Shown here one piece after another: positions 2,994 to 28,402 of a stretch of 28,402 nucleotides of DNA (position 1 is the stretch's first letter; every line of letters starts with the position of its first letter). The notes below the pieces were generated by a model. It worked only from the letters and a program-made list of their open reading frames with translations, had not been told where the DNA came from and ran no database searches. The stretch is from positions 1 through 28,402 of the IMG/VR virus record IMGVR_UViG_3300006793_000198, one strand, 5' to 3'. The position numbers were made by a program, and so were the translations under genes. Origin of the DNA: a virus.

Positions 2994-3010
2994 AGATACT
3001 CCTTATATAC

Positions 3011-3046: not shown

Positions 3047-3059
3047 GCAATAAGTGAAA

Positions 3060-9417: not shown

Positions 9418-10032
9418 TTACCCCTCATTAAAGCCTGTTAAACTTTGTACTCTTACTGTATAATCAATTTGAATTAATCTGTTTAAACTTTTTTGTACAG
9501 GGTGAAAAATTACGTGTGTAAGTAATTTACTGTTACCGGACGGACTATAACTTTTAAGACCTAATTCATCAAATACATATAATGCTTCTGTGTTAGTTGC
9601 TGTATCAAAAGCATCCTGTCCACTAGGCTCACCATAATCTAATAAACAACTAATAAACACATCGGTATAATTTGTACCGCTTACGTGTCTAGTTTCAATT
9701 TTGTTTCTTATCGGGTCAAGGTTATTAACACTACGATCATCTACAACTTTTGAAAATGTTTCTTTATATAAACTTGCATTAGTACCAGTTGAGTTTGGAG
9801 TAAGGTACGTAATTATTCCTGTTGGATCTACATTAGTTCCGCCGTTACCAAACGCCATCTCATATATAAACCCTTGTCCAGCATTACCTAAACTTTCAGC
9901 AAGTGCAACACTCATATTCTCATAATGAATGGCGTTTGGTTTATCTATAAGAACTTCGCCTGATGCAGGATCATGTATCTTAATATGGCCTTTTACATAA
10001 ACGCCGCTATGTTCATCTGTGTTTTTCATCAT
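9418..10032 (-). CDS. Conserved virion structural protein of T4-like marine phages (204 aa), function unknown
   Basis: The sequence has a conserved core 'FIYEMAFGNGGTNVDPTG', 'ITYLTPN', 'KVVDDRSVNNLDP', 'LLDYGEPSG', 'YVFDELGL' and 'LLTHVIFHPVQKSLNR', which I recall from small structural proteins standing before the fibre genes of marine T4-like phages. No catalytic motif, signal peptide or membrane helix is visible; the pattern is beta-rich and fits a small attachment or connector protein. Two adjacent ATGs (10032 and 10029) follow AAGGACA; the first is used here but the second is equally possible. It has its own late promoter and lies 3 bases before the first fibre gene, so it is probably co-made with the fibres. 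A link to a T4 gp8- or gp9-like connector cannot be shown from the sequence alone. Confidence 0.75.
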   Translation of the reverse strand: MMKNTDEHSGVYVKGHIKIHDPASGEVLIDKPNAIHYENMSVALAESLGNAGQGFIYEMAFGNGGTNVDPTGIITYLTPNSTGTNASLYKETFSKVVDDRSVNNLDPIRNKIETRHVSGTNYTDVFISCLLDYGEPSGQDAFDTATNTEALYVFDELGLKSYSPSGNSKLLTHVIFHPVQKSLNRLIQIDYTVRVQSLTGFNEG

Positions 10033-10045
10033 TGTCCTTGTGTCC

Positions 10046-10059
10046 TATATTGTATTTAT
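10046..10059 (-). promoter_or_regulatory. T4-like late promoter overlapping the giant gene's stop codon
   Basis: Minus-strand motif ATAAATACAATATA, one base different from the sites at 27606 and 5670. Its 5' part contains the TAA stop of the giant gene (10056-10058), so coding end and promoter core are the same bases. Directly downstream are GGACACAAGGACA and the ATGATG start of the 204-aa gene. It should start late transcription of that gene and of the fibre genes behind it. Confidence 0.75.
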
Positions 10060-13000
10060 TCAGGTAAGTCCTGAGTTGTATTTCTTATAAATTGAGGAAT
10101 AATTCCTTCAGCATTTGCTAGTTTGACTCCGCTATCTGCCCATGTTTTACCAGTTTTTCTAACTACTTTAACATCTATAATCTTTGTAGGATCTAGATTA
10201 GTAATTCTTACTCTTCCGATTGGGTTTTCAGTTGTTCCATAATTGTACCCGTTAACACTAAATTCAGCTTCATATGTTATATTAGTTTCTGTAACAGGAT
10301 CGTATACTATATGTGGAACTTTTCGTAGTCTTTTTCCAGCAACAAATACTTCAATTTCGTCACATTGACCATGTGTAGCAGGCACTGTATCTCTATACCA
10401 ATCAGTATTCAATGTATTTGTGTTTACATTGGGCACATAAGGTAATGCAATTTCATCTCTCAATGTTGAATCAGCAGCTTCTGGATCATCGTTTTTCTGT
10501 GTTGTTACTTCAATAGTATCATTGTACGGAACTGTATGGTTAACACTTTGATCGATAACAGGAGTGTCAGCTAGATATACTTGACTAATTCCAGTTCCTC
10601 TAGTACCTCGTCTAATTTGTCTTAAGGTATTATTAAGTTTTATAAAATATTCTATTCTTTCACCATTGATATAAATTACTCCTGGAATATTTTCATCTTT
10701 AGACGGAGTAGTTAACCCAGCTGCGGTGTTAAGAACAATATTTTTATCAAAATAATTTAAATCTTGTGCTAGTTTATATGTTCGATTACTTGTTAATCGT
10801 TTGTACTCTGTTTTATTTGTAAGATCTTTAAAAATTCTATAACCAAATCTAGATCCAACTTTGTCTCCGGCAAATTCTAAAATTTCAATTTTATCATTAT
10901 CTTGTAACTCGGTATTATAAATTATTTTCTGTTTATCGTCTGACAGTTTATAATCATAATTAGGTATCTTTAACTCTCCATTTATAAACACCCAGACATA
11001 CTCTGCTCCGTTTGCCTTTGTTCTTAATTTAAATTGTCCTGCTCGCAATTCTAAATATAGCTGATATTGAGCACTATCAGTTGACACTGTTTGGTCAATA
11101 GCAATGTCATAATGATATCTTTCAAACAGTTGATTTCTGTCATCACCTAATGCATAAACTTCAATCTTTGAGTCAAGCGCAGGTGCTGTTCCTAATACTA
11201 AATTAAATCCACTTGATGTATCAATACTAAATTCTTCTTCACCTAAAATAAATATTTTTAATGCGTCTCCATTAGTAGCAGTACCTGGTATTAAACTAAA
11301 CACATTTGTTTGTTCGTTCCATAAAAAGTTAGTTTCGTATGTTAATAATACATTATTTAAAAATACCTTTGCATCTTCTATATTAAAGCTACCTGTTGGT
11401 ATTTGCCAAGTGTCTATTTGATACTGATTTACTAGATTATTAACTACAAACTTCTTATTGTATCCTTGATTTAAAAACACATTATCTATACTAACTAATG
11501 TATTAGTATAAACAGGAGTTGTTAATGTGTAAGGTAATGCAGTTAAACTAAAGCTAACTGAACTGCCGTCACCGATTGCACTTTGTATACTAATTTGACT
11601 TTGGGGGATATCATTAGAACTTAATATAGCATAGTAAATGTAATCATCTGCTACAGGAGCTTCTCCAAATTCAATTCCAATCAATCCTTGATCATTACCG
11701 TAACTGCTGTCAGTTTCAAACAATCTGTGAGGAACCGTAACTCCGTTAACGCTTACTAACGCACTTGCATCATCTTGATATTTTATATTTGTTATATAAT
11801 TTGTAGTACTACCGTCAGCAGTAAAACTATCAACATCAAGAATATTACTCAATCCGCTATCTAATGTAGTAATTGCTACTTGATCATTTAATACAAGCAA
11901 CGAAGTAATAGTAACCTGTCTAAGTTTGTAATCTATAGTGTAATTAGTTGCAGGTATTATAATATTATTTACTTTTACTAAACACCCGCCAACACTACTT
12001 GGATTAAATCCTAAGTCAAATGTTGCGTTTGTTCCATCGTAATAATATGCTCTAGAAGCAATTATACTTCCTCCGTCATCTGGTCTATGATAAACTGATA
12101 TGTCAAGTGTGTCAGCAATATGTCCTGGAACTACTTCTTCTGTTCCTTTACTTGTATTGATAGTAACAAATCCGTCGCCGTCAATAACAATATCCTCTGA
12201 TAATAACCCACTTGCAGTTGAATATGCTAGATCGCCTCCAGATAATAATGTATCGTATGTTTCACTTTCGGGTAACTCGCTACCGTCGCTTGTGCTTTTT
12301 CTAATTACAATTTTAGCTTCAGCTGCTGATCCGATTCCAACTTGAGTATGTCTATTAATGAAAGTTTCAAACAATGCAACATCTGGAAAACTAAATGATG
12401 TTTCGCCGCTACCAACTACCGGAGCCATAAATGCTTTTGGATTATTAGTTAACAGCATCGATGTCGTGCCGTCATAACGTGTGTCGTCAACTCTAATTCC
12501 GTCTATGTATATATTATACTCAACACCTTGCTCTAAAACAAAGTTACTAGGTAATACAAAACTACTAATAGTGCCGTCGGTATAAAATACATAATCATCA
12601 CCTGTTTCAATAAAGTTGCTCCAAGCAAATGTATCCCATGTTGACTGATCCCATCCAACAATACTTTCTTGTTCTAGATTAAACGAACTTACTTCAACTC
12701 CTCCATAATCAACACCGTCCATAAGTTGAGAAATATCATTACCAAACATACCTTCAGTTGGTGCATAAAAGTAATTTATTCTATCAACAATATTTAAACT
12801 GTTTGCTGCTCTTTTATAGTTAACAATAATATTACTATTTTGTGTTGGAGGAACTGTTAACGTAACGTACCCTACTATCGACGTGGTGCCTTCTGATAAT
12901 TGACTATAGAAATTATCATAATAATTGTCTCCAGTTATTAGACCATAAGTGTCACGAGTCTTAATTGTATTATCAACAGTTATATTTCCATATGTATACT

Positions 13001-16000
13001 CACTAGTTAATAACTCTACACCGTCAATTATTACACTAACATTACTCTTTAAAAGATCCATTTCGCTATTAAGTTGATATGTAACTTGACTATCTTTACC
13101 TAATATTGTTTGTGTAAGATCAATTGAATCAAAAACTGGAGTACTTGTTATTCTATCAAATTTTAGAGAATCAGTAATTGATCGTACAACACTATTTCCA
13201 ATTCTTGCTGCAAGTCTAGGACGTCTATTTCCTTCACCGGTTGGATCATCAATAACTACTGTCGGTAAAGTTAAATATCCACTTCCGCTATTTACAACTT
13301 CAATTGCAATTATTTCTCCGTTACGCATAATTGCATTAGCTGTAGCTATAACAGTACTATTGCCTACTATAGTAACCTTAGGGACATAGGTATATCCTGT
13401 GCCACCGTCGATTACATCAATTTGTGTTACGCTGAATCCTACATTTTGTACCCAAGATTGATTAATTCTATTTAAAACATTTTCTTCACCAAATAGTTCT
13501 CCATCAATAAGTTGTATTTTTGGAGTTTCTATACGTCCAGTATCAGAATTAAATACTGGTATAATATCAAAGTCAGTAACTACAGTATTTGTATTTGTAA
13601 CTTTTTCGTAAGTGCTTAAATATTCTCTAATTTTAGTTTTGTAAGGCTTAACTTCACGCACATAATCTTCATAACTTTCTAGATTATCATTTTGATATGT
13701 AATTTTTTGTTTTAATTCACCTAGATTATGTTCTGCTTTTACAAAGCTCGTTTTAAATGCCCAGTCAATATAACGCTGTTCGCTAAATGCATACCGTATT
13801 GATGCAAGGAATAATTGATTCCATTCTATTAATAGCTCGTCAACAAATATATTATCACACAGTGCATTAAGAATACTTCTCATTTCTAGTGTTGGTTCAT
13901 TATCGTATAATTGTGTATCATAACTTTCAAGATCAAACCCTACTTGCTGCTGAGTATAATCCCAAAGAGAACTATTAAACTGTATTGTACCATTTTGTCT
14001 ACCTATAGTCTGATAATCAATAGAATTATCTAATCCAGTATTATCAACTTTACGTAAGAGTATCCAACCTCCTGTGCCAATTGAGTCTACTTTAATTAAA
14101 TCTCCAATATTATCATCAATTTTTGCCAACTCATATGTATTTGCTGTAACAAAATCTATCGAGGTAAGTTCGTTATAACCATTAGCATACCAATCAGTAT
14201 AAGTCCAATATAACGTATTATCAAATGATTGTGTTAAACCACGCTTCCACTTGCCTTCAGTTGTATCGTATGTATATAAAGCCCATCTATTACTAATACT
14301 AGAATCAGCATTAACTAATACTGTGAAATCACGTACTACTGGCGAAATAACATTATAATTTTGTCCTTTATTAACTATTACAACATCTGTAACTTGACCG
14401 TTTTGTATTACTGTTTGCACTTCTGCGTTTTGTCCGTCTCCGGAAATAATTACTGTAGGTGCTGTTATATAACCTTTACCAGGATTGGTAATTTCAATTT
14501 TATTAATTTTTCCTTCTAGCAACGAAATGGATATTTCAGCAGTTTTAAATGTTTCTAAATTAATGTTTATTAACTCAAAAGTGCTGTCGATTGCAACATC
14601 ATATTTGTTTTCTCTAATATCAGGTAGTTCGTCACGCTTTAATAATGTAGATAAATCATAATCATCTATAATTACTTGTTTGCTTAGAATCCAGTTTACT
14701 CTTTCAAAAAATTCTTTTCGAGCTTCAAAACGATTTGTAAACATACTCTGTCGAGGAATATTTAATGTTCCATATTTTTGTTTTTCTGATAAGTTTCTAT
14801 TAGGTACTTCTCTAATAAATTTGTCAGAACCAATTAAACTATCAAACCATTTTTCTTTTAGTTGGTCATTTGGAACACTAGTGTTTAACCCGTCTGTAAA
14901 TATTTGATACTGTGTATGTATATTAGATTGTGTATTATCATTAGTATAATAACTAAAGTTTAGTGCATGTTCTTTACCACTAAACAAACTGCCCATATTG
15001 TACATTGCAAATTCGTTATTACCTAATAATGCTACAAAACGGTATCCTTGTCCTGCAGGATCTTCAATCATTAACGCAATTTCTTGTGCTGTTAGTTGTC
15101 TATAAAAGTTTGTTTCTGGGAGTGTTCTTTTATTAGATATCCAGTAATAGTAGTTTGTTGTAAATGATGATGATTCAGGATTATAAATTCTTCCTGTTGC
15201 ATAAACATCATCACCGTACTTAGTTGTGCCTGTTATTCCTTGTACATATCCTTGATTAGTATTAGTTAAGGCATTCCATTGAGAAGGTAGTAATGTTGTT
15301 TCTACCCATTCACATACTTCAACACTATAACCTGGAAATATTTTATTCCAATTATTTGTTTTATACGCTATATCGCCCTGATAAGGATTATAAAACTTAC
15401 TTGAATTCAAATTCCACCATACTTTACCAACTTGATTTTTACCCCAACTTTGATCGCTATCAACTACTACATCACTAGTTCCAATATCGTATACTGCTGG
15501 GTCGTAATATGTTTTAAAATCAATTTCTTGCTCTAACGGAGCAGCAATTTTTCCTTGTAGTACATCAATATAATCTACTTGAGAGATAAAATTCTTTGTT
15601 CTTGTGTTATAAACAAACGAAGTTTTTATTTTAGAAGTATCAACAATTTCACTTGACTGTTTTATAACTTTCCAACTATTAGTATTAGGTGCTTTTCGTA
15701 TATCATAAATGGTACCTAAATCATTTTCTAATCCACTATATGGTAAACCAACATATACATGATTTACTCCTGATGATAATGTAAAGTTAGTAACATTAGA
15801 ACCGTCAAGTACTATCTGTCCTGAATAAAGTAAACCGTTTTCAAATTGATCGTACACATTTAAATTAGTTGTGTCGTTGTTTATAGTACCTATTCTAGTA
15901 AATTTACCATCCATTGTAAAGTCAAGATCTAATGGATCATATCTGTATGTTCCTGTTGTGAGAACAAACAAGTTATTTTCATTAAATTCAAAATTTAATC

Positions 16001-19000
16001 CAAATTCTTGATCTCTTAAATCTTGTGGTGCCTCTATTGTTTGTTCTAAACTCCAAGACAGATTTTTCCATTTGTACAGGTAAATTTTTCCACTGTTTTC
16101 AAGTGTGCCATTATCGGCATACGGAGCACCAATAATCAATGTCTTACCGTCGTCACTAAGTGCAACCTTACTACCAAACCCTTGGTTTTCTACTGTACCA
16201 CTAATAGTTTCACTTAACGTAATACGAGTATTATTTTTACGATATATTGCAACCTTTTCAGCGGCAACTTCTTGCCAAGAGTTTGTAACTGTAGTATCTG
16301 CATCTGGCATATCAACAATGCTTGCAATTGATGTAATATCTTCCTGATGCCATAATGTTTCTGGTGCTGAACTATCTTGAATTGTTATGTTTATAGGGTT
16401 AGTAGTATCAAATACTCCAGTTACATTAGTTAGTATAATTCTATTAGAATCAATCACCTGACTTTTTACCGTACCGGTTGCTCCGCTAACATTTTGTGTT
16501 ACAAGTGCACCAATTGGTATAGTTAGTTTTGCAAATATATTATTTGATATTTCTGTATCAGTAGCCGATGTTAGGTATAAAACTTGTTCTTTTATAGGTA
16601 GTATCGAACCTAGTGCTTTATAAACTTTACCATTATTACTTACGATATCACCTACTGAATAAACTGTAGAAGCTTCATACTTAGGATAGTTAGTAATTCC
16701 TACTGCTAGGACTTCACCGTCTGCAGAAACTGCAAACGAGTCGCCAAAGGTTTCCCTTTCTTCGTCTGATAACACTGTACTATCGTCATTCAATACTGGT
16801 AAGGAATTATTTGGTACATACCCTAAAATATTGATATCGTCGTTAATTAACTCCCAATTAGCTAAATTAAAATTACCTGGTGTTACAACTGTTTTTGCCT
16901 TATATAATTCAGTACCGGTTATGTTAGGATTACCTAGTTGAGGTACATATAATACAATATCATCTTTATAATATTTTTGTAAAGAATTAAATTCGCCTTT
17001 AAAACTGGTATCTTCTCTATAAGAAAGTGTGTTGGTAGAATTATTATACTCTAAAATATAAATTCTTTTAGTGCCTGGCGCACTTACATATATCTCATAG
17101 TTGTCATTAACTTTTACAATTTTTATAGTTTTACCAAACAGTTCACTTTCTTGAGGATATCGACTTGTTGTGCTTGTCTTAAGCTCATAGAATCTAGGAG
17201 AAACTTGTTTGAAAATAAATATTGCCCCTTGCTCGTTAAGTAAACTAGCAGATCCGTTAACATCAGCAGGAATAGATCCTATTGCTGTTATATCACTTCG
17301 TTCATTATTAATAAGATCACTGCTATTATCGCCGTCATAATCTTCATTAAATAACCATAATGTATCTAGGTAACTTACAATGTCACCGGCTGTATATACT
17401 ACGTTAGAGACAAACTCGCCCTTATAATTTGATTTAACACCAGTTGCGTTAGGATCAGCAATTACTAATAGATCTTCGTCGTCACTTAGTGCAATACTGT
17501 TTCCAAGTGTAAGTGATGTTGCATAATCGTTAAGTCCTTCTATTTTAGACTGATAATTTAATTGTAATGTTTCGCTGTTACGTTGATAATAATAAATTGC
17601 ACCATTACCATTTTCAGCAGTAGGTGCTCCAACAAATATGTTTTGATTTTTTCGGCCAGATGCTATTACACTGCCAAAGCCATCAATTGTATTTTCGTCT
17701 GCTATCTCTACCCAATTAGTTGAATCAGTATCCGGTGATACTGTACTAAAATGGGTAAGAATAGCTAAGTAACGCACTTCATTATATAATACAGAATCGT
17801 TTTTAGAATATCTGCCCGAAGCCCAATCGCCTTTGTAGTCTGCACGATTGTCAATTGTTTGATTTAGATAATAAGGATTAGTATTTTCAACAACTTTCCA
17901 ACTTGAATTATCAGTTTCGTCTATCCAAACTTTGTCTCCTGCAGAAAGATAATTTGTATTAATATTATTGTTAAAATTAGTAATGTCAGCCGTTCGTTGT
18001 GATACAAACTTATACACAAAAATACTCTCAGGAGATACAGTGTCAGGTGCCGCAGCAGTACTACTAACTGTGATTGTTTTAAACCCTATATCTTTTACTT
18101 TGAAACATCTGTTTATTTTATCTTCTACAAAAGTTGTAGTTTCAGCTGCTCCGTAAAACCCGACATATTCGCCAACTTCAGTATTTCGTACTATATCATT
18201 TAGTGTGAATACAAGATCACTTCCAACAGCTTCAACAGATTCTACTATTAGTTCTGTCTTAGTAGGCTTAAGAATATCCCAGTCATTATTAAAGTTTGAT
18301 ACCCAAACATATGTTGTTCTTGTAACATCACTAAAATCTAAAGTTGGAAGTTCTGAAATGTCTTTAATGATATATGTTACATCAGTTTCGCTTACGTAAC
18401 CTACATCTTTTAGAAACTGTTCGTAATTGTCCTTTAATACAAACGGTTTGTGATCATAATCTAAAGGTTTAGTATATACATCTGCTTCAGGTAATTTATA
18501 TACTAAACTTGTATCTGTGCCATCGATAAGATTTGTAAGTATAACAGGCTGTGGCTGTAATTTATATTGTGATTCATCAATTGCTAATTCAAATTCTCTA
18601 AAGTTATCAACAGCACCATATTGTCCAGTTCTAACTGCCCATTCTTCGTAAAATTTTAAACCCGAAGTTGCTTCACTAGAAATTAAAGTATCAAATAACT
18701 TAGTTAAACTATTCTTGGTTCCTTTTTCACGTATCATTCCTTGATAAAATTTATACTGGCTTACTTCGTCGTTAATAATATTTTCTAGGTATTGACGTTT
18801 TTGATAACCTATTAAATGCTGTGCTAGTTTTTGCTGCTCACTATCAAAGTTATCAGTATCTAAATCGTAAAAATCTCCAAACTGTACTGTTTTGTAATCC
18901 CAATTAGCTTTTAATCCAGGTTCTGGTTTTTCTGCTAATTGTACCCAACGACTAGTATCAAATATTTCTGTTCCAGATATATTACTATTAGCAATATAAT

Positions 19001-22000
19001 AATATTCTTTAAATTTAACTGTGTCACCGACAATATAATCTTTATAACTTTGCCATGTAGTTACTTTAATATCATCGTAAATAAATCCTGGTATTTCAAA
19101 TCCGCCGTTCCAGTTGTCTGTTCTATAACCTAGAACTTTTATTCTGTCTTGACGATACCCCATTTCCGGTGCATAGATATAATCGTTAAATCTAGTTGTA
19201 TTATCTAATATTAACACATGTTCTTTTTGCACAGGATATACTTTACAAAAGTATATTCCGTCTTTGGTATTTTGTGTTTGTATTTTAAATACATTGTCTT
19301 CTCTAAATGTTGTTACAAACTCTTTGCTTAAATTATTTCCGTCAGCTTTAAATAATAGATTTCCGTAAAACGGATCAAACACATCGTCGATTATTGCAAA
19401 TTCATTAGAGTATGTTAGTTTACTGGCAGCTGGACTTAATGTAATTACGCTTCCAACTTCCCAATTCTGTAGTGTCCAAAACATAAATTCTTTTGCACTA
19501 GTTTTCCAATTGTACACTTCGCCAGTTTCGCCATCAAACTCGTCAAATACAAATCCTTGGCTTTTTAAATAACTTTGATATCCTAATAAAAAGTCAACTA
19601 CTGATTGTAGATTATTAAATACTGATCCATAAGGAACTTCTATAACATTACTAAAATGAGACTTTCTAAATATTGCTCGGGCGCCGCCTACAATCGGAAG
19701 TTCTGGCAACTGCTGCCATTCGTCAGGATTAAATGCACCTGGTTGAATATTCGACAATGCTCTAAAATAACTTCCGTTATATAAAACAATTTGTCCTTCA
19801 CTCCAGTTAATTGCTCTCCAATCACTATAGGTGTCAGATACGCCGCCAACAGCAATAGATGAGTCACTTACTGTTTCTTTATATTCATTAATATAAAAAG
19901 AAGATTTTTCTTTGTCGTATCCTCTAACACTATACCCTGAAATCAACTTCTCGATTATAACTCCGCTATATACAACTTCGCTGATTGGAGAACTTTTATT
20001 AAGGGATATTTTATAGTTTTCTGCTGGAACAAAAACATTACCTTTATTCAGTGGTGTTCTACTATCTAATATTAATTTAAAATTGTCTTTATTGCTAAAG
20101 CCGCCCAATTTACTTACTAGATTAATTTGTAGATTCTTTAATGTTGTTTGATAATTGTCAACTGGTGTTTGATTTTTACTTGCTAAAAAGTTTTGAATAT
20201 AATTTACTAATCCAACTGTATTAAACTTTGTAGTATCACTTGGTTTGTTAGGAAATACTAAATCTTTTAATTGTATTCTTAATGATGTAGGTTCGTATAC
20301 TATTTGATCTTGCGCATTTTTTATTTGACGGGATTTGTCAAATGCTGATGCAAATATTTTGTGAGGATAATTTACTATCATACTTGTTAGTAGTGCAAAC
20401 GGATATTCGCTACTTCGTCTCCAAGCATTTTCAACAGGAGATTGGTCACTAAAGATAAAATCATTAGTACCTAGTAATTCACTATATCCAACAACTAGTC
20501 TTGCTGATATTGGAGTTTTTAATGTTCCATTTTCAGTTACTGGAATATGTGATAATAACCAAGATCTTATTTTATTTTTAAAAACTTTTACAGGTTTATT
20601 AGGTTGTTTTAATTTACCATTTGACAAGTCTTCCCATAGAACTAAATTACCATCAGTATATGGCGCAGGGCCATATTGCTCTTCCCACCAACTAGGTTTA
20701 ACTGTTAGCCCTAGCATTTCCCAAGGATGAGTATGAGGACGATCTGTATCATACACATACTTAAATATACCTCTCCAAAATCCTGGAGACTTATCGCCAT
20801 TAAATAAGGTACAATGATTATAATTGTAAGTAAATGCGTTATCAATATTATAGTAGGAATTATTTTGATAACTTTGACCGCCTGTAAATGTAAGCCACTG
20901 TCCAAAGTCTTGTGTTAGCGATTTATTAATAGACGCTATAGGTAATCCTTGTTTTCTATCAAATGACTGTATTAACTCGTCGTAATCAAATAATGTTTTA
21001 TCGTATGCTACTTTAATATTATTATAGATTCTTTTTTCAAATTCTAAAATTAAGTCATCTCTGAAGTCATTGTATGCTTTAGTAATACTACCGTCGTGTC
21101 CTTGAATTACATTTGTCGGAGTTTGATAGGTAGTATCAACAAATATTTTTGGCTCATATGCTGGATACAGTCCCAGCTTTGTTGGCGTTGGCGGTATAAA
21201 ACTACCATTGGTAGTTTCGTATTCTTCAACACATAACTCTTGACCTCGTTGCAATGCTTTAGAAATAATTATAAAATCTTCGTTGAATGTATAGTCTCTT
21301 TCGTGCAATAATAATTCATTATCAAGATATACCATTACACTTTTATCAGAACTAGTAGATAAATTAAACTCTCGAGTCATAGGATAATTTTTAATTCTCG
21401 AATCTTTAATTTTATATTCTATAACATTTTTAGCTTTAAATGATAGCATATCGCTAAAATAAAACGGCATTTCTTTAGTTTTATTTTTAACAATATTTTG
21501 TAATATTATATCTAAATGAGTTTTTGCTAATCCATCATAGCTTACATTATTAGCAGTAAGTAAAAGTAATCTTTTAAATTTTGCATACTCTCTTTTTGCA
21601 TACTTTAGTGCTTTTATAATATTTGCATCTTTATCTAGTATATGATAACCTGCTAAACTAAAAGGAGCACTGTGTTGTACTACCTTTTTACCATAAAATA
21701 TACTATCAGGTATATCTCTTAAATTACCAACTCCTGGAAATATACCTGTAAATGTTGGTGCTTCTTCAACAATTGATAGTGCATGATCTAACACTTCACC
21801 AAATGTAAAGGACGGTAATATATCATTGTTTGGATTGCGTTCTAAATTTATTGGAACTTCGTATACACCATTATCATTTTTATTTTGTACGCTACTAGTT
21901 TTAATTGTAATAGAACTATCTACTAAATCGTTCACAAATCTCACTAGTAATTTATTTCCGTCTGTGACTAAATTATAATCAGTTATTGGAAATTTTAAAG

Positions 22001-24101
22001 TATTATTTACAAATACATTTACATTTAAATCTGTAATTAAATGTGCATTGTCATATACATCAATTTCAAAATTATTAGACTGTTCAGCGTTTGCAAAATA
22101 TTGTTTAATAACTCGTTGCGTTCGAGTAACTCTAGATTTTACCCAAGCACTTTCAATCTTAAAATTATTATGTCTATCGTATTTGTGTAAAAATGTTTTA
22201 GATGATTCAACTTGTTTAACTAATAAATTATCAGTATAATTATACTGTTCCGTCAAATAGTTGTATGCAAATACGATGTCGCCTGTATTTTCAATTGTTC
22301 TATAAGTTAGAGGAAATCCTAAATCTGTGTCGTCTGTTCCTGTTCCAATCTGATACGAAAATAATTTATTGCCTGCAAAACTTGTACCAGGATACACAAT
22401 ACTATTCGATAAACTATTTCCGTCTTTATCAAACAAATCAAATAACGGTGCTTGGTTTACAGTATCTTTAGTTTGTGCTTTAATCCAATTACTATCGTTA
22501 TAATACCAAATTACTCCTTGATTATTAGTTCCCTTAGTAACCAATACTGTTTCATTAAGCACAGGAGTTGAATCATCTTCCTCAACTAGTGATATTTGGT
22601 CATTATTTTTAAATTTAATAAATTTAACTTTAAAAATTTTACCCCTAACTTTTGTATCAGGATCATTTGTAAAAATAACTCTCATACCTTCTGTTAGATC
22701 AACACCGTCGACATTATATCCTTGTTGTCCTTCTATAATACTAAATGCATCTGAAGTAAAAGTATCAATTAAATCAACACTTTGTTTATTAGACGTACCG
22801 TAATTATAAAGTTTTATACCAGGCGTAAACTCGATGATAGGTTTAAACGCTCGATTGTCTTGATCTAAAGTAAATTCTAATTCATTTATTTTAGCACTTA
22901 TTTCAATTACATCTTTATGGAACCAACGATTGTATCTACTCCAAGGAGATTTTTCAGGCGCTGCTCTATTAATCAATATGTAATCTTTTGTACCTGCAAA
23001 GGTTGCCTGGTCTGCAAAAGGTAACGAATCAAATCCGTTATTATCAAAAGGTATAATACTAGCATCTGTATAAGTTGCAGGAATTTCTAAATCTTTATCA
23101 GATATTAAATTTATAGATTTTCCAACTCCTTCTACATACCAGTTGCCTTCTTGATACTTTTGTGGATTAGTTTTTCCAGCAAAATTAACTTTCATTCCGT
23201 TGGTAATATTATACCCATTTGATAATTTGAAAGTTTTTTTACCTTGAAGTTCTTCATCAACATCTATAAAACTTGCTTCTTCTGCATTTAATATGTTTAT
23301 AGAACCACCTTGATTAGGATCGTTAGCATTTATATAAAATAATGTAGTCGGAGTAGTTTCGTCTAATGTTAATTCAATTATGCCTTCTTCGGTTCCGTTG
23401 TTTATAACATTTTCATAATCATAGTCACTATCTAAAGAACGTTGTGTTCTAAAAAATAACGGAGCATCTTTACAGTCAACTTCGAACTTATAAGTACGTC
23501 CTCTATATAATGTAAGATTTGGATTTCTTGTTAATCCGTTAGGGTCAAATATATACGGCTGATTATCGAGATCATCGCCTAGTTCTACAGTATATGTACT
23601 TTCGATAATATCTTCTTGTCCGACTATAGTTATTGCGGAAGGTCCATTTGGTAACCAATAATATTCTCTAAAGTTTACAAATTTGTCAACATCAATTTTT
23701 GGATCCCAGCTATAAAATTCTTGTTGATTTAACCTATTATGATTTTTTATGTCTGCACCAAATATTTCTATTTGATTTAAAAAGTCGTTATAATCTTTGA
23801 AAAAGTCGACATTATTTAATTCGTCAAGCGCAACTAATCCAGGTTCAAGTTGATAATTTTCTCTATTCTTTGATACATCAGGTAAAAATGTATCAGTTTC
23901 TACTACACTTCTAGAACTACGTCGACCAATATAGTCATTAACTTTTTCAACCTGACCGTTTTTTATAAATTGGTCAATTGTTGCATTTAAAAATTTCTTA
24001 TTAAAATCAGTTCTGAAATATCTAGGAAGAAATCCTTCAGACTTTTTATTAACATCACCAATAGGTAGCGGAGACTCGTTTTGATTTTTATCGTATGCCA
24101 T
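10056..24101 (-). CDS. Giant multidomain virion structural protein (4681 aa), probable baseplate/tail-fibre network component
   Basis: One uninterrupted 14,046-base frame, predicted protein roughly 0.5 MDa. It resembles, from memory, very large uncharacterised virion proteins of marine T4-like phages; its slot after gp6 is where T4 has gp7, gp8 and gp10. Visible modules, by residue: conserved N-terminus (1-150: 'FLPRYFRTDFNKKFLNATID', 'NHNRLNQQEFYSWDP'); cupredoxin-like fold (about 192-268); aromatic-rich segment about 1095-1150 ('PGFWRGIFKYVYDTD', 'WWEEQYGPAPYT'); small W/Y modules about 1425-1470, 1680-1734 and 2084-2134; seven FG-GAP-like blades (about 2134-2820); paired GKGY/GSGY beta repeats (3195-3254, 3557-3622); a helical, charged domain (3400-3500, 'RYAFSEQRYIDWAFKTSFV'); fibre-type beta modules (about 3686-4601). 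No signal peptide or membrane segment. The ATG shares a base with the gp6 stop; GGAGG lies 13 bases upstream. Structural role likely; exact function unknown. Confidence 0.85.
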   Translation of the reverse strand: MAYDKNQNESPLPIGDVNKKSEGFLPRYFRTDFNKKFLNATIDQFIKNGQVEKVNDYIGRRSSRSVVETDTFLPDVSKNRENYQLEPGLVALDELNNVDFFKDYNDFLNQIEIFGADIKNHNRLNQQEFYSWDPKIDVDKFVNFREYYWLPNGPSAITIVGQEDIIESTYTVELGDDLDNQPYIFDPNGLTRNPNLTLYRGRTYKFEVDCKDAPLFFRTQRSLDSDYDYENVINNGTEEGIIELTLDETTPTTLFYINANDPNQGGSINILNAEEASFIDVDEELQGKKTFKLSNGYNITNGMKVNFAGKTNPQKYQEGNWYVEGVGKSINLISDKDLEIPATYTDASIIPFDNNGFDSLPFADQATFAGTKDYILINRAAPEKSPWSRYNRWFHKDVIEISAKINELEFTLDQDNRAFKPIIEFTPGIKLYNYGTSNKQSVDLIDTFTSDAFSIIEGQQGYNVDGVDLTEGMRVIFTNDPDTKVRGKIFKVKFIKFKNNDQISLVEEDDSTPVLNETVLVTKGTNNQGVIWYYNDSNWIKAQTKDTVNQAPLFDLFDKDGNSLSNSIVYPGTSFAGNKLFSYQIGTGTDDTDLGFPLTYRTIENTGDIVFAYNYLTEQYNYTDNLLVKQVESSKTFLHKYDRHNNFKIESAWVKSRVTRTQRVIKQYFANAEQSNNFEIDVYDNAHLITDLNVNVFVNNTLKFPITDYNLVTDGNKLLVRFVNDLVDSSITIKTSSVQNKNDNGVYEVPINLERNPNNDILPSFTFGEVLDHALSIVEEAPTFTGIFPGVGNLRDIPDSIFYGKKVVQHSAPFSLAGYHILDKDANIIKALKYAKREYAKFKRLLLLTANNVSYDGLAKTHLDIILQNIVKNKTKEMPFYFSDMLSFKAKNVIEYKIKDSRIKNYPMTREFNLSTSSDKSVMVYLDNELLLHERDYTFNEDFIIISKALQRGQELCVEEYETTNGSFIPPTPTKLGLYPAYEPKIFVDTTYQTPTNVIQGHDGSITKAYNDFRDDLILEFEKRIYNNIKVAYDKTLFDYDELIQSFDRKQGLPIASINKSLTQDFGQWLTFTGGQSYQNNSYYNIDNAFTYNYNHCTLFNGDKSPGFWRGIFKYVYDTDRPHTHPWEMLGLTVKPSWWEEQYGPAPYTDGNLVLWEDLSNGKLKQPNKPVKVFKNKIRSWLLSHIPVTENGTLKTPISARLVVGYSELLGTNDFIFSDQSPVENAWRRSSEYPFALLTSMIVNYPHKIFASAFDKSRQIKNAQDQIVYEPTSLRIQLKDLVFPNKPSDTTKFNTVGLVNYIQNFLASKNQTPVDNYQTTLKNLQINLVSKLGGFSNKDNFKLILDSRTPLNKGNVFVPAENYKISLNKSSPISEVVYSGVIIEKLISGYSVRGYDKEKSSFYINEYKETVSDSSIAVGGVSDTYSDWRAINWSEGQIVLYNGSYFRALSNIQPGAFNPDEWQQLPELPIVGGARAIFRKSHFSNVIEVPYGSVFNNLQSVVDFLLGYQSYLKSQGFVFDEFDGETGEVYNWKTSAKEFMFWTLQNWEVGSVITLSPAASKLTYSNEFAIIDDVFDPFYGNLLFKADGNNLSKEFVTTFREDNVFKIQTQNTKDGIYFCKVYPVQKEHVLILDNTTRFNDYIYAPEMGYRQDRIKVLGYRTDNWNGGFEIPGFIYDDIKVTTWQSYKDYIVGDTVKFKEYYYIANSNISGTEIFDTSRWVQLAEKPEPGLKANWDYKTVQFGDFYDLDTDNFDSEQQKLAQHLIGYQKRQYLENIINDEVSQYKFYQGMIREKGTKNSLTKLFDTLISSEATSGLKFYEEWAVRTGQYGAVDNFREFELAIDESQYKLQPQPVILTNLIDGTDTSLVYKLPEADVYTKPLDYDHKPFVLKDNYEQFLKDVGYVSETDVTYIIKDISELPTLDFSDVTRTTYVWVSNFNNDWDILKPTKTELIVESVEAVGSDLVFTLNDIVRNTEVGEYVGFYGAAETTTFVEDKINRCFKVKDIGFKTITVSSTAAAPDTVSPESIFVYKFVSQRTADITNFNNNINTNYLSAGDKVWIDETDNSSWKVVENTNPYYLNQTIDNRADYKGDWASGRYSKNDSVLYNEVRYLAILTHFSTVSPDTDSTNWVEIADENTIDGFGSVIASGRKNQNIFVGAPTAENGNGAIYYYQRNSETLQLNYQSKIEGLNDYATSLTLGNSIALSDDEDLLVIADPNATGVKSNYKGEFVSNVVYTAGDIVSYLDTLWLFNEDYDGDNSSDLINNERSDITAIGSIPADVNGSASLLNEQGAIFIFKQVSPRFYELKTSTTSRYPQESELFGKTIKIVKVNDNYEIYVSAPGTKRIYILEYNNSTNTLSYREDTSFKGEFNSLQKYYKDDIVLYVPQLGNPNITGTELYKAKTVVTPGNFNLANWELINDDINILGYVPNNSLPVLNDDSTVLSDEERETFGDSFAVSADGEVLAVGITNYPKYEASTVYSVGDIVSNNGKVYKALGSILPIKEQVLYLTSATDTEISNNIFAKLTIPIGALVTQNVSGATGTVKSQVIDSNRIILTNVTGVFDTTNPINITIQDSSAPETLWHQEDITSIASIVDMPDADTTVTNSWQEVAAEKVAIYRKNNTRITLSETISGTVENQGFGSKVALSDDGKTLIIGAPYADNGTLENSGKIYLYKWKNLSWSLEQTIEAPQDLRDQEFGLNFEFNENNLFVLTTGTYRYDPLDLDFTMDGKFTRIGTINNDTTNLNVYDQFENGLLYSGQIVLDGSNVTNFTLSSGVNHVYVGLPYSGLENDLGTIYDIRKAPNTNSWKVIKQSSEIVDTSKIKTSFVYNTRTKNFISQVDYIDVLQGKIAAPLEQEIDFKTYYDPAVYDIGTSDVVVDSDQSWGKNQVGKVWWNLNSSKFYNPYQGDIAYKTNNWNKIFPGYSVEVCEWVETTLLPSQWNALTNTNQGYVQGITGTTKYGDDVYATGRIYNPESSSFTTNYYYWISNKRTLPETNFYRQLTAQEIALMIEDPAGQGYRFVALLGNNEFAMYNMGSLFSGKEHALNFSYYTNDNTQSNIHTQYQIFTDGLNTSVPNDQLKEKWFDSLIGSDKFIREVPNRNLSEKQKYGTLNIPRQSMFTNRFEARKEFFERVNWILSKQVIIDDYDLSTLLKRDELPDIRENKYDVAIDSTFELININLETFKTAEISISLLEGKINKIEITNPGKGYITAPTVIISGDGQNAEVQTVIQNGQVTDVVIVNKGQNYNVISPVVRDFTVLVNADSSISNRWALYTYDTTEGKWKRGLTQSFDNTLYWTYTDWYANGYNELTSIDFVTANTYELAKIDDNIGDLIKVDSIGTGGWILLRKVDNTGLDNSIDYQTIGRQNGTIQFNSSLWDYTQQQVGFDLESYDTQLYDNEPTLEMRSILNALCDNIFVDELLIEWNQLFLASIRYAFSEQRYIDWAFKTSFVKAEHNLGELKQKITYQNDNLESYEDYVREVKPYKTKIREYLSTYEKVTNTNTVVTDFDIIPVFNSDTGRIETPKIQLIDGELFGEENVLNRINQSWVQNVGFSVTQIDVIDGGTGYTYVPKVTIVGNSTVIATANAIMRNGEIIAIEVVNSGSGYLTLPTVVIDDPTGEGNRRPRLAARIGNSVVRSITDSLKFDRITSTPVFDSIDLTQTILGKDSQVTYQLNSEMDLLKSNVSVIIDGVELLTSEYTYGNITVDNTIKTRDTYGLITGDNYYDNFYSQLSEGTTSIVGYVTLTVPPTQNSNIIVNYKRAANSLNIVDRINYFYAPTEGMFGNDISQLMDGVDYGGVEVSSFNLEQESIVGWDQSTWDTFAWSNFIETGDDYVFYTDGTISSFVLPSNFVLEQGVEYNIYIDGIRVDDTRYDGTTSMLLTNNPKAFMAPVVGSGETSFSFPDVALFETFINRHTQVGIGSAAEAKIVIRKSTSDGSELPESETYDTLLSGGDLAYSTASGLLSEDIVIDGDGFVTINTSKGTEEVVPGHIADTLDISVYHRPDDGGSIIASRAYYYDGTNATFDLGFNPSSVGGCLVKVNNIIIPATNYTIDYKLRQVTITSLLVLNDQVAITTLDSGLSNILDVDSFTADGSTTNYITNIKYQDDASALVSVNGVTVPHRLFETDSSYGNDQGLIGIEFGEAPVADDYIYYAILSSNDIPQSQISIQSAIGDGSSVSFSLTALPYTLTTPVYTNTLVSIDNVFLNQGYNKKFVVNNLVNQYQIDTWQIPTGSFNIEDAKVFLNNVLLTYETNFLWNEQTNVFSLIPGTATNGDALKIFILGEEEFSIDTSSGFNLVLGTAPALDSKIEVYALGDDRNQLFERYHYDIAIDQTVSTDSAQYQLYLELRAGQFKLRTKANGAEYVWVFINGELKIPNYDYKLSDDKQKIIYNTELQDNDKIEILEFAGDKVGSRFGYRIFKDLTNKTEYKRLTSNRTYKLAQDLNYFDKNIVLNTAAGLTTPSKDENIPGVIYINGERIEYFIKLNNTLRQIRRGTRGTGISQVYLADTPVIDQSVNHTVPYNDTIEVTTQKNDDPEAADSTLRDEIALPYVPNVNTNTLNTDWYRDTVPATHGQCDEIEVFVAGKRLRKVPHIVYDPVTETNITYEAEFSVNGYNYGTTENPIGRVRITNLDPTKIIDVKVVRKTGKTWADSGVKLANAEGIIPQFIRNTTQDLPE
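10300..13047 (-). repeat. C-terminal array of fibre-type beta modules in the giant protein
   Basis: Residues about 3686-4601 repeat a strand-turn-strand unit of the type V-x-(I/V)-(N/D)-(G/N)-x-x-(I/L)-x(3-8)-(Y/F)-x-x, often followed by an I-x-F/I strand and a D-x-I-x-I/L end. Eight copies are visible, among them 'VSVIIDGVELLTSEYTY', 'CLVKVNNIIIPATNYTI', 'ALVSVNGVTVPHRLF', 'AKVFLNNVLLTYETNF', 'VWVFINGELKIPNYDY' and 'IEVFVAGKRLRKVPHIVY'. The pattern resembles adaptor/fibre beta sandwiches such as those in T7-like fibre N-termini. Copies are well diverged, so this is an old array and not recent duplication. Confidence 0.55.
13235..14515 (-). repeat. Two paired 'G-x-GY' beta-repeat modules flanking a helical domain
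   Basis: Residues about 3195-3254 and 3557-3622 each carry two copies of the pattern I-x-I/V-x-(N/D)-x-G-x-G/N-Y-x(3-5)-P-x-V-x-I, with an Ala-rich strand and 'G-x-I/V-x-x-I/V' between copies (for example 'ITNPGKGYITAPTVII' and 'VVNSGSGYLTLPTVVI'). About 300 residues lie between the two modules, and part of this stretch is helical and charged (residues about 3400-3500). Such repeats recur in tail and surface proteins as stiff beta linkers; the function here is unknown. Confidence 0.6.
15645..17725 (-). repeat. Seven FG-GAP-like blades: probable beta-propeller in the giant protein
   Basis: Residues about 2134-2820 contain seven segments with the order [G-F/L-G ... alternating hydrophobic ... 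I/V-G/A-x-P ... G-x-I-Y-x-Y/F]. Examples: 'GFGSVIASG..NIFVGAP..GAIYYYQ', 'LGNSIALSDDEDLLVIADP..GAIFIF', 'FGDSFAVSADGEVLAVG', 'GFGSKVALSDDGKTLIIGAP..GKIYLYKW' and 'HVYVGLP..GTIYDI'. Several have acidic loops (SDDEDL, SADGE, SDDGK) like the calcium loops of FG-GAP/integrin-alpha repeats. Seven copies fit one complete propeller ring. The match is by eye; blades 3, 6 and 7 are weaker than the rest. Confidence 0.6.
16590..19830 (-). repeat. Repeated W/Y-rich carbohydrate-binding-like modules in the giant protein
   Basis: At least six short segments share the pattern W/Y-x(3-8)-Y-x-x-G/N-D-x-V-x-Y/F-x(3-6)-Y-x-A ... W-x-x-L/I, as in small aromatic sugar-binding modules of the CBM5/12 chitin-binding type. 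Approximate positions: 19690-19830 ('NWSEGQIVLYNGSYFRA' ... 'EWQQL'), 18900-19063 ('YIVGDTVKFKEYYYIA' ... 'RWVQL'), 17700-17850 ('RYSKNDSVLYNEVRYLA' ... 'NWVEI'), 17335-17430 ('VYTAGDIVSYLDTLW'), 16840-17010 ('KYYKDDIVLY' ... 'NWELI') and 16590-16710 ('VYSVGDIVSNNGKVYKA'). Several lie next to or inside propeller blades. Sugar binding is an inference from the aromatic pattern. Confidence 0.55.
23296..23527 (-). other. Degenerate cupredoxin-like domain in the giant protein
   Basis: Residues about 192-268 follow the pattern of plastocyanin-like beta sandwiches found in some marine phage virion proteins: 'NLTLYRGRTYKFEV', a 'NNGTEEGIIELTL' turn and strand, 'TTLFYINA' and 'GGSINIL'. Where copper-binding relatives have HPF and Y-x-C-x-x-H-x-x-M, this sequence has APLFF and FYINANDPNQGG, so the His, Cys and Met ligands are missing. 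I infer a fold kept for structure or sugar/protein contact, without metal. Confidence 0.5.
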
Positions 24102-27100
24102 TAGTAACTGTATCCTCCAGTATTATTACTGCTGCTTGTTGATGTTGACTGTGTACTTACCGCAATATTACTGCTTGTTGTCGGTGTTGACTGTGTACTT
24201 ACCGCAATATTTCCTTGCGCCCTAAGTTGCGATTCAGTATTACTTGTTATAATATCAATATCGTCAACTGTTGCGCCGCTAATAAGAACTTCGTTATTTT
24301 CACTTGCTATTTCAAATAATCCTCCAAAGTTTAACGACTGATCAGTTGGAACTATTACCATACTTACTATAACAGGGCTTAGTTCTTTCATTATATACGT
24401 TGCCATTTCTTGGAAGTAAAATGTATCTCCAAAGTCCCAGTTTTCTAAACTAAAATAAATGTCCATAAGATCTACAATTTGACTCTTTAGTATGTTGTCA
24501 TTAACTGTAACTCCTAGATTTTTTACAACCTTAATTTTAGCTTGGTATACACTAGATGCTTTTGGTCCAAATAATACTTTATATTTTACTGGATGATATA
24601 TTACTTCGTCACTAATACTTTTAATAGCGCCGATTGCATCGTTAAAATTGATAAACAAATTATCGCTACTAGGAGGCTTTGGAATAGCAGCGCCTGTTGT
24701 TGCTAGATATTTTCTAAATTCAATATCGTAAGATCTTGTCAGTACAAAAGTATCAATAATATTACTAACACTAGGATCAATTCTTGTATTTTGATCAGCA
24801 CTATGAGTATACTGAATTGTAAGTTTGTCTCTTCCAGCAAATGCTCTGTAGTTGCTAGTTATTGTTAGTTTCTGCTGTGTAAGATTTAATACCTTAAATA
24901 GTTTGCTTTCTGAAAGATAAAATACTTGATTGTCATCATATTGCGAAACTGCACCAATTTGACCTTCGTTATTAACAACTATAATGCCTTCATTATTTTG
25001 ATCTACATATTTGTAATCTTCTAAATTATCTGCTGTTATATATTTCTTTTGAAATATAAATTTAGTATTACTGTTCACATCCTCTTGCACTAATGTTTTA
25101 AATAGATCTGGGTCATCTGAAACTCCGTCGTTGTCGCTGTCGTAAAAGTCAACCTTTACTTTGCGACTATCAATATAACCTTCTGCATTTTGAAAAGTAT
25201 CTACAATTTGCCAACTATAATCTCTAGTAAACGGTAACAAACTATCAGGCTTAGTATTCACACTTAGCACTTTTATTAGGTCACTAACATATTGTCCTGT
25301 TTTAGTATCAAATACAGTATTATCCTTTTCAAAATAAAATCTTATATCTTGTTCACTTTCGGCTATAAATTCTAATACTCGATTAGTAACAGTGTATGTT
25401 ACAGCATCAGTTTGGAATAAAATTATCCAACTTGAATCTTGATTAGTACCTGATATATCTCCGGATTTACCTAAACTAAAATTATTTACTGTATCTAAAT
25501 CTTGATTAGTAATAATTTTCCACTGGCGCAATGTTGAGTCATATCTAAGGCCAAACGATTTATAAGAAAATATTAAATCAATTGCTTTACTAATTACATC
25601 ACTTCCTAGTTCTCTAGTGTATTTTTGACGCAAGCCTGTTAACAAAGCGCCACTCGGAATATTATCACTAAACACTAGCGGTCCTGTTCCTGAATCAAGT
25701 GTACCGTTGTTTTCTGCTGTTCCGTCATTTACAACTTGTACAACTCTTGTCCATACATATTCAACTGAATTTTTATGATCCGGATCACCAAGCATAAGTT
25801 TATTTTTGTTGTTAGACATAAAATGATAACCTGACGGCGCACTAAACTTAACCATAGCACCCGGTTCAACATATTGTAAATTGCCGCTTGTAAAACTAGA
25901 TAATTTATAGATATTATCACTTAAATCTTTTAAGTAACCAGTATCTCTATTTGTATCAGTAGTTACTCTTTCCCAGACTATATTATCTTCATTAAATAAT
26001 ATTTCAGTATAATTGTCATAATAAAAATTTCTTGTTTTAGATTGTTTTATTATTGGATCAATTGTATTAACTAATATATTTTCAATATCAGTTCTAGTAT
26101 CAAAAGAAAATGTAGTTTTGTCAGTTGACTGTTGTTTATATATTATACCATCATCTGCAAAAATATTTGTGTTACTATATTTTCCTGTACTATCTTTTAG
26201 ATCAAAATATCGACTAATTCCGCTTGAATTTCTGTTAACACTTTTTACTTTTACAATTTCTTGTGTAGTAGCAAGTGGTCCAACATTGTAATCTTCTGCT
26301 GTAATTAATCTGTTTTGTGTATAATATGCAGCTGGTGCATTTGAACGAATACTATCATTTGATTCTGTTGCACTTGCATTATTAACAATATACTCTAAAC
26401 TAGCAACTATTGTTAAATTATGTGTATTACCTTTTGAATTTATATAAGGTATTTTAAAACTAATATTCTTTATTTCATTTGGATTAATTTGATAACTTCT
26501 GTTAGCACTTGTTCTATAATAAGTTTTAAATTGACCTTTTGGTAAATTACCAAAAATTCCATCGCTAAACAACAAATCAATTTTATCATTTGATTTTGTT
26601 AGAACATTATAAATGTTTTTGTTACCACTAGTAAGTGTATTGTATACTACATTATTTCCGGTAAGGCTAGATACTTTATTCCATAGCTCAACTTCATTCC
26701 CGTTAGAATCAAGTTTATATAACCATACATCCGAATTGTTTATATTTGTTGCATCAATACTAACAACTTGATTTGTACTAGGATTAGTAACTGAGAAATT
26801 TCCGTTTTGTAATATACCTTGTCTAAAATGTACAAAAAATCCGTTGTTTGATGAGCTGGCTCCTTTTCCGTCATCTTTGTAAATTAGTGATAGACTGTTG
26901 CCAGGGAACGGTTCTTCTTCAACAATATTTCCGTCTGTAATTCTACAACTAGTAACTTCAAACGGAGTATTTATTCCGCTTATTGCTTTTGAAAAGCTAT
27001 AAATTGGTACGTCTGCTGACACACCTGCTAATCTGTACTGTTCTGAATTAATTCCATTTACATCGCCAAATGCAATTGGATTTCCAAACTTATTATTATT

Positions 27101-27640: not shown

Positions 27641-28075
27641 TTAACTAATGAGACCATTATTTTGGTCAAAATCAAAACGCATTTTTTCTGAAATATTATA
27701 ATTTAAATATCGTAATGTACATTCGATATTGAGTCCGCTTTCGTATTCTTCTAAAAATACACTGTCTACTTGAACCCGAGGATCCGAGTTCACAATTTCT
27801 GTTACGTTATCTAAAACTGCCTGCCTTAGATCTTCTGTTAAAGGCTCAAATAAGACATCCCATATTATTGTACCAAAAGAAGGATTTTCTAACTTTTCGC
27901 CCTGTCTTATATGAAAATGATTTATGATATCTTGTTTTATAATTGCAATATCATATAATGTTTTGCTATCATTAATATCATTTACTGTACTAATACCCTT
28001 GTACCGTTGAGATATCACAGGATTGCTATCTTCGTATCCTATAACTTTAATATTTTTATATAAACTATCTTCCAT
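27641..28075 (-). CDS. 25: Baseplate wedge protein, gp25-like (GPW/gp25 family)
   Basis: A 144-aa protein close to the usual length of T4 gp25 (132 aa) and P2 gpW. It has the family pattern: an N-terminal strand, a helix around 'DIAIIKQDIINHFHIRQGE', then the hallmark 'NPSFGTIIWDVLFEP' near residues 62-76, a helix with 'VTEIVNSDPRVQVDSV' and a final beta hairpin. In T4-like particles gp25 sits in the inner baseplate next to gp6 and gp53 and helps start sheath assembly. The start is ATG at 28075 with GAGGT six bases upstream; the gene follows the hydrolase stop by 3 bases and precedes gp6 by 45 bases, the usual gp25-gp6 order. No catalytic lysozyme function is implied, despite the historical family name. 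Confidence 0.93.
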   Translation of the reverse strand: MEDSLYKNIKVIGYEDSNPVISQRYKGISTVNDINDSKTLYDIAIIKQDIINHFHIRQGEKLENPSFGTIIWDVLFEPLTEDLRQAVLDNVTEIVNSDPRVQVDSVFLEEYESGLNIECTLRYLNYNISEKMRFDFDQNNGLIS

Positions 28076-28078
28076 TTT

Positions 28079-28402
28079 TTACCTCGTACTCGCATAACTG
28101 TCAAGGCTACCTGAAGCCAAATCTGTTCCAATAACTGGAAAATCATATTTCTCCGGAACAGTCCAGTTTCTTTTTATTGATGTTAGTGTCATTCTATCGC
28201 CCCTTACTAAAAAATTACTTAATTTTACAGTATCCTTTTGATTTCCGCCTAACATCTGTACACGCTTTGTTGACGGATTATAACCTCTAAAAAATCCAAC
28301 ATGTCCAAATCTTGAGTCATCATTTCTTGTTAAAATCACTATGTCATTAGTGCGAACATTTTCAAATGTCCTCCAGTCAATTTCTGAACCATATTGTTTA
28401 TA
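28079..28402 (-). CDS. C-terminal part of a CHAP/TIGR02594-like cell-wall hydrolase (5' end outside window)
   Basis: The last 107 codons of a gene entering from the right edge; the frame stays open to base 28402, so an internal GTG at 28339 is not a true start. The visible protein matches the end of the TIGR02594 family of phage NlpC/P60- or CHAP-like peptidoglycan hydrolases: a tryptophan segment (DWRTFENV), a 'DIVIL' strand, the histidine motif GHVGF (28292-28306) and LGGNQ (GGNQ at 28238-28249). The His and Asn would be two members of the Cys-His-Asn-type catalytic triad; the Cys would lie upstream, outside the window. About 45 residues follow the motif. It ends 3 bases before the gp25-like gene, the place where T4 relatives carry hub/lysozyme genes, so it may be the cell-wall-cutting tip domain of the baseplate hub, possibly fused to a gp5-like part. 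Family call fairly sure; the hub role is inferred from position. Confidence 0.72.
   Translation of the reverse strand, partial: YKQYGSEIDWRTFENVRTNDIVILTRNDDSRFGHVGFFRGYNPSTKRVQMLGGNQKDTVKLSNFLVRGDRMTLTSIKRNWTVPEKYDFPVIGTDLASGSLDSYASTR

Follow-up and report, generated by a model that had tools for sequence, protein, structure and literature searches.

Gene organization of the locus

The window analysed here is the whole stretch of 28,402 nucleotides; it is an entire 28.4-kb IMG/VR virus record, and since that record is a genome fragment, genes absent from the window say little by themselves. Along the minus strand, from 5' to 3', it carries the 3' end of a hub/lysozyme gene, then gp25, gp6, a giant gene, one gene of 204 codons' product length (204 aa) and three fibre genes:

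28079..28402, minus strand: 3' end of a gp5-class hub/tail lysozyme gene (phrog_1259, E 5e-9)
27641..28075, minus strand: gp25, sheath initiator (PF04965, E 2e-6; phrog_261/phrog_43)
24101..27595, minus strand: gp6-class baseplate wedge protein, 1164 aa (phrog_10646, E 3e-290)
10056..24101, minus strand: giant virion protein, 4681 aa, 529 kDa (phrog_10938 family)
9418..10032, minus strand: conserved partner protein, 204 aa (phrog_11259, E 6e-72)
7408..9414, minus strand: fibre 1, 668 aa, Phage Tail Collar domain, gp12-type (PF07484, E 8e-17)
5696..7411, minus strand: fibre 2, 571 aa, N-terminal module as in fibre 1
4094..5653, minus strand: fibre 3, 519 aa, N-terminal module as in fibres 1 and 2

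The giant is encoded by a single ORF with an ATG start and zero internal stops, accounting for 49% of the window, in good agreement with a preliminary description of an uninterrupted 14-kb frame filling half of it. The protein has a mass of 529.4 kDa. Codon-position GC is constant over the full length (about 0.43/0.34/0.17), arguing that the giant is one genuine coding frame. Its start overlaps the gp6 gene (24101-27595) by one base. The preliminary description placed it between gp6 and the fibre genes; it does follow gp6 directly, but the conserved 204-aa gene precedes the fibres. Residues 27-147 of gp6 constitute a T4-type N-terminal region (phrog_219, E 1e-22), and the 3' end of the hub/lysozyme gene gave a weak CHAP match (PF05257, E 0.03) that is below the cutoff.

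The three fibres are paralogues with a common N-terminal module of about 135 aa, and this shared head would be a natural candidate for docking onto the giant. Fibre genes 3' of the giant number one to three among relatives, with three in most close relatives, two in PA5oct and one in several others; GAP32, RaK2 and 121Q have no such gene directly 3' of the giant. Homologues of the 204-aa partner (phrog_11259) were found in 41 loci, almost always right after the giant.

Small genes and weakly glycosyltransferase-like genes lie 3' of the fibres. A 65.9-kb IMG/VR contig represents the same virus (100% identity, from mid-giant onwards), and ten ORFs of it were scanned past the window. Some matched radical-SAM proteins, carbamoyltransferases and ATPases, and one weakly matched a tail fibre; no additional T4 baseplate genes were found among these ten. 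The weakly glycosyltransferase-like, radical-SAM and carbamoyltransferase genes 3' of the fibres (1-2647 and L253/L254) possibly form a glycan-modification cluster.

The giant belongs to a family of jumbo-phage virion proteins

The giant falls within phrog_10938 (PHROG 10938; 1054 bits, E 0, four stretches, the best at residues 727-1676), whose jumbo-phage members, 3323-4555 aa long, come from RaK2, 121Q, GAP32, CBB, PA5oct, Atu_ph07, Phosso, SCTP-2 and Vibrio 2.275.O. BLASTP matched the window giant to seven jumbo-phage giants. The GenBank lengths are:

PA5oct, 3857 aa
Phosso, 4555 aa
GAP32, 3341 aa
Vibrio 2.275.O, 3771 aa
Atu_ph07, 4449 aa
RaK2, 3326 aa
121Q, 3323 aa
CBB (CBB_236), 3340 aa

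The family also occurs in 49 IMG/VR loci, where complete copies span 3376-5609 aa. The giant is a real, new member of a known family without an assigned role, and is not unique; in the literature examined, as far as the text of those reports was accessible, phrog_10938 giants carry the annotation 'virion structural protein' or 'hypothetical' and are given no function. The nearest sequence relatives are jumbo phages of the RaK2/PA5oct/Atu_ph07 type rather than the marine T4-like phages mentioned in the preliminary description, although cyanophage P-SSM2 does have a protein of 5195 aa at the equivalent position.

The gp6 gene lies immediately 5' of the giant in all 45 IMG/VR loci that cover that side, and in every one the gp6 end and the giant start either overlap or are separated by at most 77 nt, with no intervening gene. 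Among GenBank relatives, SCTP-2 alone departs from this order, its giant being located apart from gp6. This Salicola phage (L011:8630-29421) has adjacent giants of 3096 and 3807 aa away from gp6, of which the second is the homologue. At another locus (L043:8670-23605) the giant appears as 634-aa and 4112-aa frames about 0.7 kb apart, which may reflect an insertion, a frameshift or an assembly error.

That the giant is a virion protein, as had been proposed, is supported by mass spectrometry of three relatives. The record of PA5oct gp355 carries an ESI-MS/MS note. CBB_236 (3340 aa, beside the gp6 protein CBB_237) is represented by 21 peptides at 7.7% coverage (PMC5259590), and phAPEC6 gp245 (381.9 kDa, beside the wedge protein gp244) by 17 peptides at 7.6% (PMC7247149).

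Conserved core blocks, a variable insert and mobile modules

An alignment of 45 giants revealed conserved blocks at residues ~1-1950 and ~2800-3500 (taken as 1-1990 and 2790-3520 in the window giant), separated by a variable insert (~1950-2800) of which GAP32 retains only about 120 residues. Because this insert is variable and nearly missing in GAP32, we regard the propeller as accessory and the remainder as core. The C-terminal 1001 residues, used as a query, had no match in GenBank phages. The features of the giant are as follows:

23634..24101, minus strand: conserved N-terminus, residues 1-156 (LPRYFRTDxNKKFL...YQLEP...YSWDPxIDxDKFxNF)
23247..23609, minus strand: cupredoxin-like beta domain, residues 165-285 (AF2 and Foldseek)
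18990..19055, minus strand: CBM5/12-like W/Y module, residues 1683-1704 (Foldseek to chitin-binding domains)
18492..18899, minus strand: helical KGT region, residues 1735-1870 (cyanophage/T4 gp7 profile match)
18717..18725, minus strand: K-G-T, residues 1793-1795 (KGT in 40/43 giants, KGS in 3/43)
15732..18134, minus strand: lineage-variable insert, residues 1990-2790, FG-GAP and CBM5/12 (nearly absent in GAP32)
13542..15734, minus strand: second conserved core block, residues 2790-3520 (alignment)
14322..14534, minus strand: GxGY beta module 1, residues 3190-3260
13224..13454, minus strand: GxGY beta module 2, residues 3550-3626
10602..10874, minus strand: 'RG' beta module, residues 4410-4500 (common to the P-SSM2 giant N-terminus)

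The chain of modules read from the sequence at the outset was mostly real, in that the cupredoxin-like, W/Y (CBM5/12), FG-GAP and GxGY beta-repeat elements were all detected. The variable insert is probably a beta-propeller; in it or nearby, we detected CBM5/12 W/Y modules (PF02839, E 5e-12, three stretches) and FG-GAP (PF14312, E 5e-6). CBM5/12 matches within residues 1000-2000 were present in 34 of 34 family members. Copper binding by the cupredoxin-like domain was rejected on inspection alone, as no H...C..H..M set was apparent. The GxGY module is mobile and occurs in several proteins, including the cyanophage gp8 family phrog_438. We also rejected the PHROG label 'Head closure Hc2', which is best explained by this mobile module, residues 3550-3626 being the probable cause.

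AF2 modelled residues 1-1150 (32 sequences) with a mean pLDDT of 77.1 and a pTM of 0.62, and residues 1000-2000 (34 sequences) with a pLDDT of 70.5 and a pTM of 0.36. Among the matches listed by Foldseek in the PDB, those of the first model were mainly cupredoxins; the second model gave at useful probability only chitin-binding modules, with no whole-domain match and with gp7 absent among the matches listed. The comparison with T4 baseplate folds suggested in the preliminary description thus produced no match among those listed for the two models. PDB sequence searches with single sequences and alignment profiles detected nothing beyond chitin-binding modules of the CBM5/12 type, a depolymerase repeat and, weakly, a pectin lyase, and a BFVD fold search returned mostly the same family together with weak matches. 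Given that the PDB fold matches listed are mainly cupredoxins and chitin-binding modules, most of the core has no detected solved relative. The helical KGT region was modelled at a pLDDT of about 45-62 only, a poor result that might be expected if this segment needs partners.

T4 peripheral baseplate proteins in relatives

We searched 15 relative records for the T4 peripheral baseplate proteins with profiles, using T4 as a positive and gp53 as a sensitivity control. The gp7 profile (phrog_964) detected T4 but none of the 15 relative records, and a T4+cyanophage gp7 profile uncovered no alternative gp7 in them. Neither gp8 (phrog_977), apart from one 28-column match at chance level, nor gp11 (phrog_963) was found in any of the 15. 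For gp10 (phrog_958) we observed only partial short modules, located in other genes of some relatives. The gp53 control was found in 14 of the 15 records, the miss being a 3' fragment (G001); since gp53 itself was detected only at E 1e-3 to 1e-6, a distant gp8 or gp10 could escape detection. The preliminary description reported no otherwise recognisable homologue of gp7, gp8, gp9, gp10, gp11 or gp12. For gp7, gp8 and gp11 this holds in the 15 relatives, but a gp12-type collar domain is present at 7408-9414. Homologues of gp7 or gp8 elsewhere in the genome, which would have counted against replacement, were not seen in these records, and gp10 was seen only as partial modules. When five core segments of the giant were compared by hhalign with T4 gp6, gp8, gp9, gp10, gp11, gp12 and gp53, no match was obtained; gp9 was represented in this comparison by one T4 sequence.

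Similarity of the KGT region to gp7

The giant had no hits to the T4 gp7 families Gp7_helical, Gp7_5th and Gp7_6th (Pfam) or phrog_964, and its direct hhalign comparison with T4 gp7 was not significant (prob 1.3). PF23786 (Baseplate_wedge) misses the giants and, over whole relative records, matches P-SSM2 only. The N-terminus of the 5195-aa P-SSM2 protein, however, aligned with the stretch of T4 gp7 from about residue 724 to 812 (prob 90.6, E 1.3e-6, in one comparison), the alignment being centred on FYxxKGI (FYxxKGIExS...LF), and on the strength of this match we consider the P-SSM2 protein to be a giant gp7. It is located after gp6 (L088:21930-37517) and annotated merely 'predicted protein'.

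Residues 1735-1870 of the window giant, with the pattern FYxGxIxxKGTxxxxxxLF, matched a cyanophage gp7 profile over ~80 columns (prob 40.7, E 2.9e-4), and KGT or KGS is present in all 43 giants (40 and 3, respectively). When 101 tiles of the giant were compared with the cyanophage profile, good matches were confined to the KGT region and the mobile 'RG' module (4366-4591), the next tile reaching 20.6; with a combined T4+cyanophage profile, tile 1711-1891 alone stood out from the background (28.7, against 19.3 for the runner-up). None of 100 column shuffles reached the observed 32.9 with the cyanophage profile (shuffle maximum 24.0). The control with the combined profile was borderline, since the shuffle maximum (28.8) exceeded the observed value (28.2). 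Over whole relative records the combined profile detected T4, P-SSM2 and one meaningless weak match. P2 gpI as a single sequence did not match the giant; gpI loci are nearly identical, so that a diverse gpI profile could not be built, and a wider search for diverse gp7 yielded cyanophage-like loci only. The KGT region is therefore suggestive of homology between the giant and gp7 but does not prove it, and because a probability of 40% is by itself only suggestive, the case for a gp7-class protein rests partly on position and partner.

Discussion

Starting from what is established above, namely the order of the genes, the family to which the giant belongs, the detection of relatives in virions, the conserved core and variable insert, the KGT similarity and the fibre cassette, we think it probable that the giant is the gp7/gpI/TssG-class baseplate wedge subunit of a T4-related jumbo-phage lineage, expanded to about 4.5-fold the length of T4 gp7 into a multi-domain, fibre-bearing scaffold. 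The order gp25-gp6-giant-fibres equals W-J-I-H of P2, and T4 gp7 likewise follows gp6. The contractile wedge is a 2:1 heterotrimer, namely (gp6)2-gp7 in T4, (TssF)2-TssG, (gp16)2-gp17 in XM1 and (gp31)2-gp32 in A-1(L), with a core bundle made of helices and a third chain able to carry spikes or fibres; XM1 holds its spikes by the gp7-class subunit and A-1(L) gp32 touches the long fibre (PMC6300606, PMC10457771, PMC10966104). In known structures the N-terminal helices of gp6 pair with the gp7-class subunit (PMC10457771, PMC6300606). Given that the window gp6 keeps the T4-type N-terminal region, a third wedge chain is expected, and the giant occupies its place.

One could envisage one copy of the giant in each of six wedges, with the helical KGT region (~1735-1870) packing on the gp6 dimer to form a heterotrimer, (gp6)2-giant, that would be the starting point for gp25 and the sheath. 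The N-terminal block of ~1700 residues and the 2790-3520 block would make up an outer scaffold, and the propeller/CBM insert and C-terminal beta modules would be exposed on the outside, where they bind glycans or hold fibres. Both the 204-aa partner and the common fibre heads would dock on the giant, and receptor binding could for that reason be relayed through a single chain to the baseplate core.

Several other readings were weighed against the wedge-subunit proposal. One, which we consider unlikely, is that the giant has replaced gp7, gp8, gp10 and perhaps gp9/gp11, and contains fused or diverged domains of them. T4-type gp7, gp8 and gp11 were indeed not found in 15 relative records, although T4 itself was detected and gp53 turned up in 14 of the 15, the GxGY module is shared with the cyanophage gp8 family phrog_438, and T4 gp7 itself touches gp8, gp9 and gp10 (PMC3004832). 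However, the five core segments have no profile match to T4 gp8, gp9, gp10, gp11 or gp12, the PDB matches listed for residues 1-1150 are mainly cupredoxins, and GxGY is a mobile module of several proteins. Simple contractile phages of the P2 type have gp25-gp6-gp7-fibre without gp8 to gp11 (PMC3004832), and P-SSM2 encodes gp8 next to its own giant, so that missing gp8-gp11 do not show replacement; their absence also fits a simple P2-like baseplate. Size does not imply replacement either, since the 5195-aa gp7 of P-SSM2 coexists with a true gp8. Replacement of gp8, gp9, gp10 and gp11 by the giant is speculation. The preliminary suggestion of one virion protein standing in for several fares accordingly: its presence in virions (three relatives) and in the gp7 slot (45/45) is supported, but replacement of gp12 is not supported, a gp12-type collar-domain fibre being present (7408-9414). 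It is possible, though not probable, that one chain of 3300-5600 residues, in six copies, bridges the gp6 bundle and the fibre sockets and takes over the functions of gp7 and of the whole intermediate ring (gp8, gp10, gp9/gp11). If so, a large fraction of the baseplate would be one protein relaying the fibre signal to the sheath.

That the giant instead forms the tail hairs or whiskers of RaK2-like phages and has no wedge role appears very unlikely to us, even though it contains many beta and glycan-binding modules and the reports on CBB, phAPEC6 and Atu_ph07, each with a family member, describe whiskers or hairs. The PA5oct relative MIJ3 has a giant, yet its microscopy, in the available text, reports baseplate fibres rather than hairs; for so large a protein, few peptides were recovered from CBB and phAPEC6, as would be the case at low copy number; and the giant is paired with gp6 in 45/45 IMG/VR loci. 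We give little credence to a baseplate-associated adhesin outside the wedge core, gp7 being an unrecognised small protein. Its glycan-binding modules, variable insert and fibre cassette, together with the weak core-bundle homology (prob 1.3 directly with T4 gp7), would suit such an adhesin, but conservation is strongest in the two core blocks and not in the glycan-binding insert, the match of residues 1735-1870 to gp7 profiles exceeds background, and there is no gene between gp6 and the giant in the 45 loci.

The wedge-subunit assignment can be set beside known systems. The phrog_10938 jumbo giants (3323-4555 aa vs 4681 aa in the window; about 22-30% identity over long segments) resemble the window giant in core 1-1990 and 2790-3520 and in the gp25-gp6-giant order, whereas the window giant has the large propeller/CBM insert and three fibre genes 3'. 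The P-SSM2 giant shares the slot, size class, KGT helical region and RG and GxGY modules, but it has no HMMER-level core similarity, its KGT region is N-terminal and a true gp8 lies next to it. T4 gp7 (1032 aa) also directly follows gp6 and has FYxTKGIExS in a helical region of similar type; unlike the giant, it is surrounded by gp8 to gp11, and the direct profile match is not significant. P2 gpI, XM1 gp17, A-1(L) gp32 and TssG represent the minimal third wedge chain holding fibres or spikes, with the W-J-I-fibre order; P2 gpI (176 aa; XM1 gp17, 242 aa; window giant, 4681 aa) has HCHKGT, yet no detectable sequence similarity to the giant.

Assignment of the giants to the gp7/gpI/TssG class would supply dozens of phages with their seemingly missing wedge subunit. 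It would explain the lack of a separate gp7, tie these proteins to the cyanophage giant gp7 and predict fibre attachment. It also points to a third wedge chain in contractile systems that can range in size from 176 aa, as in P2, to more than 5000 aa.
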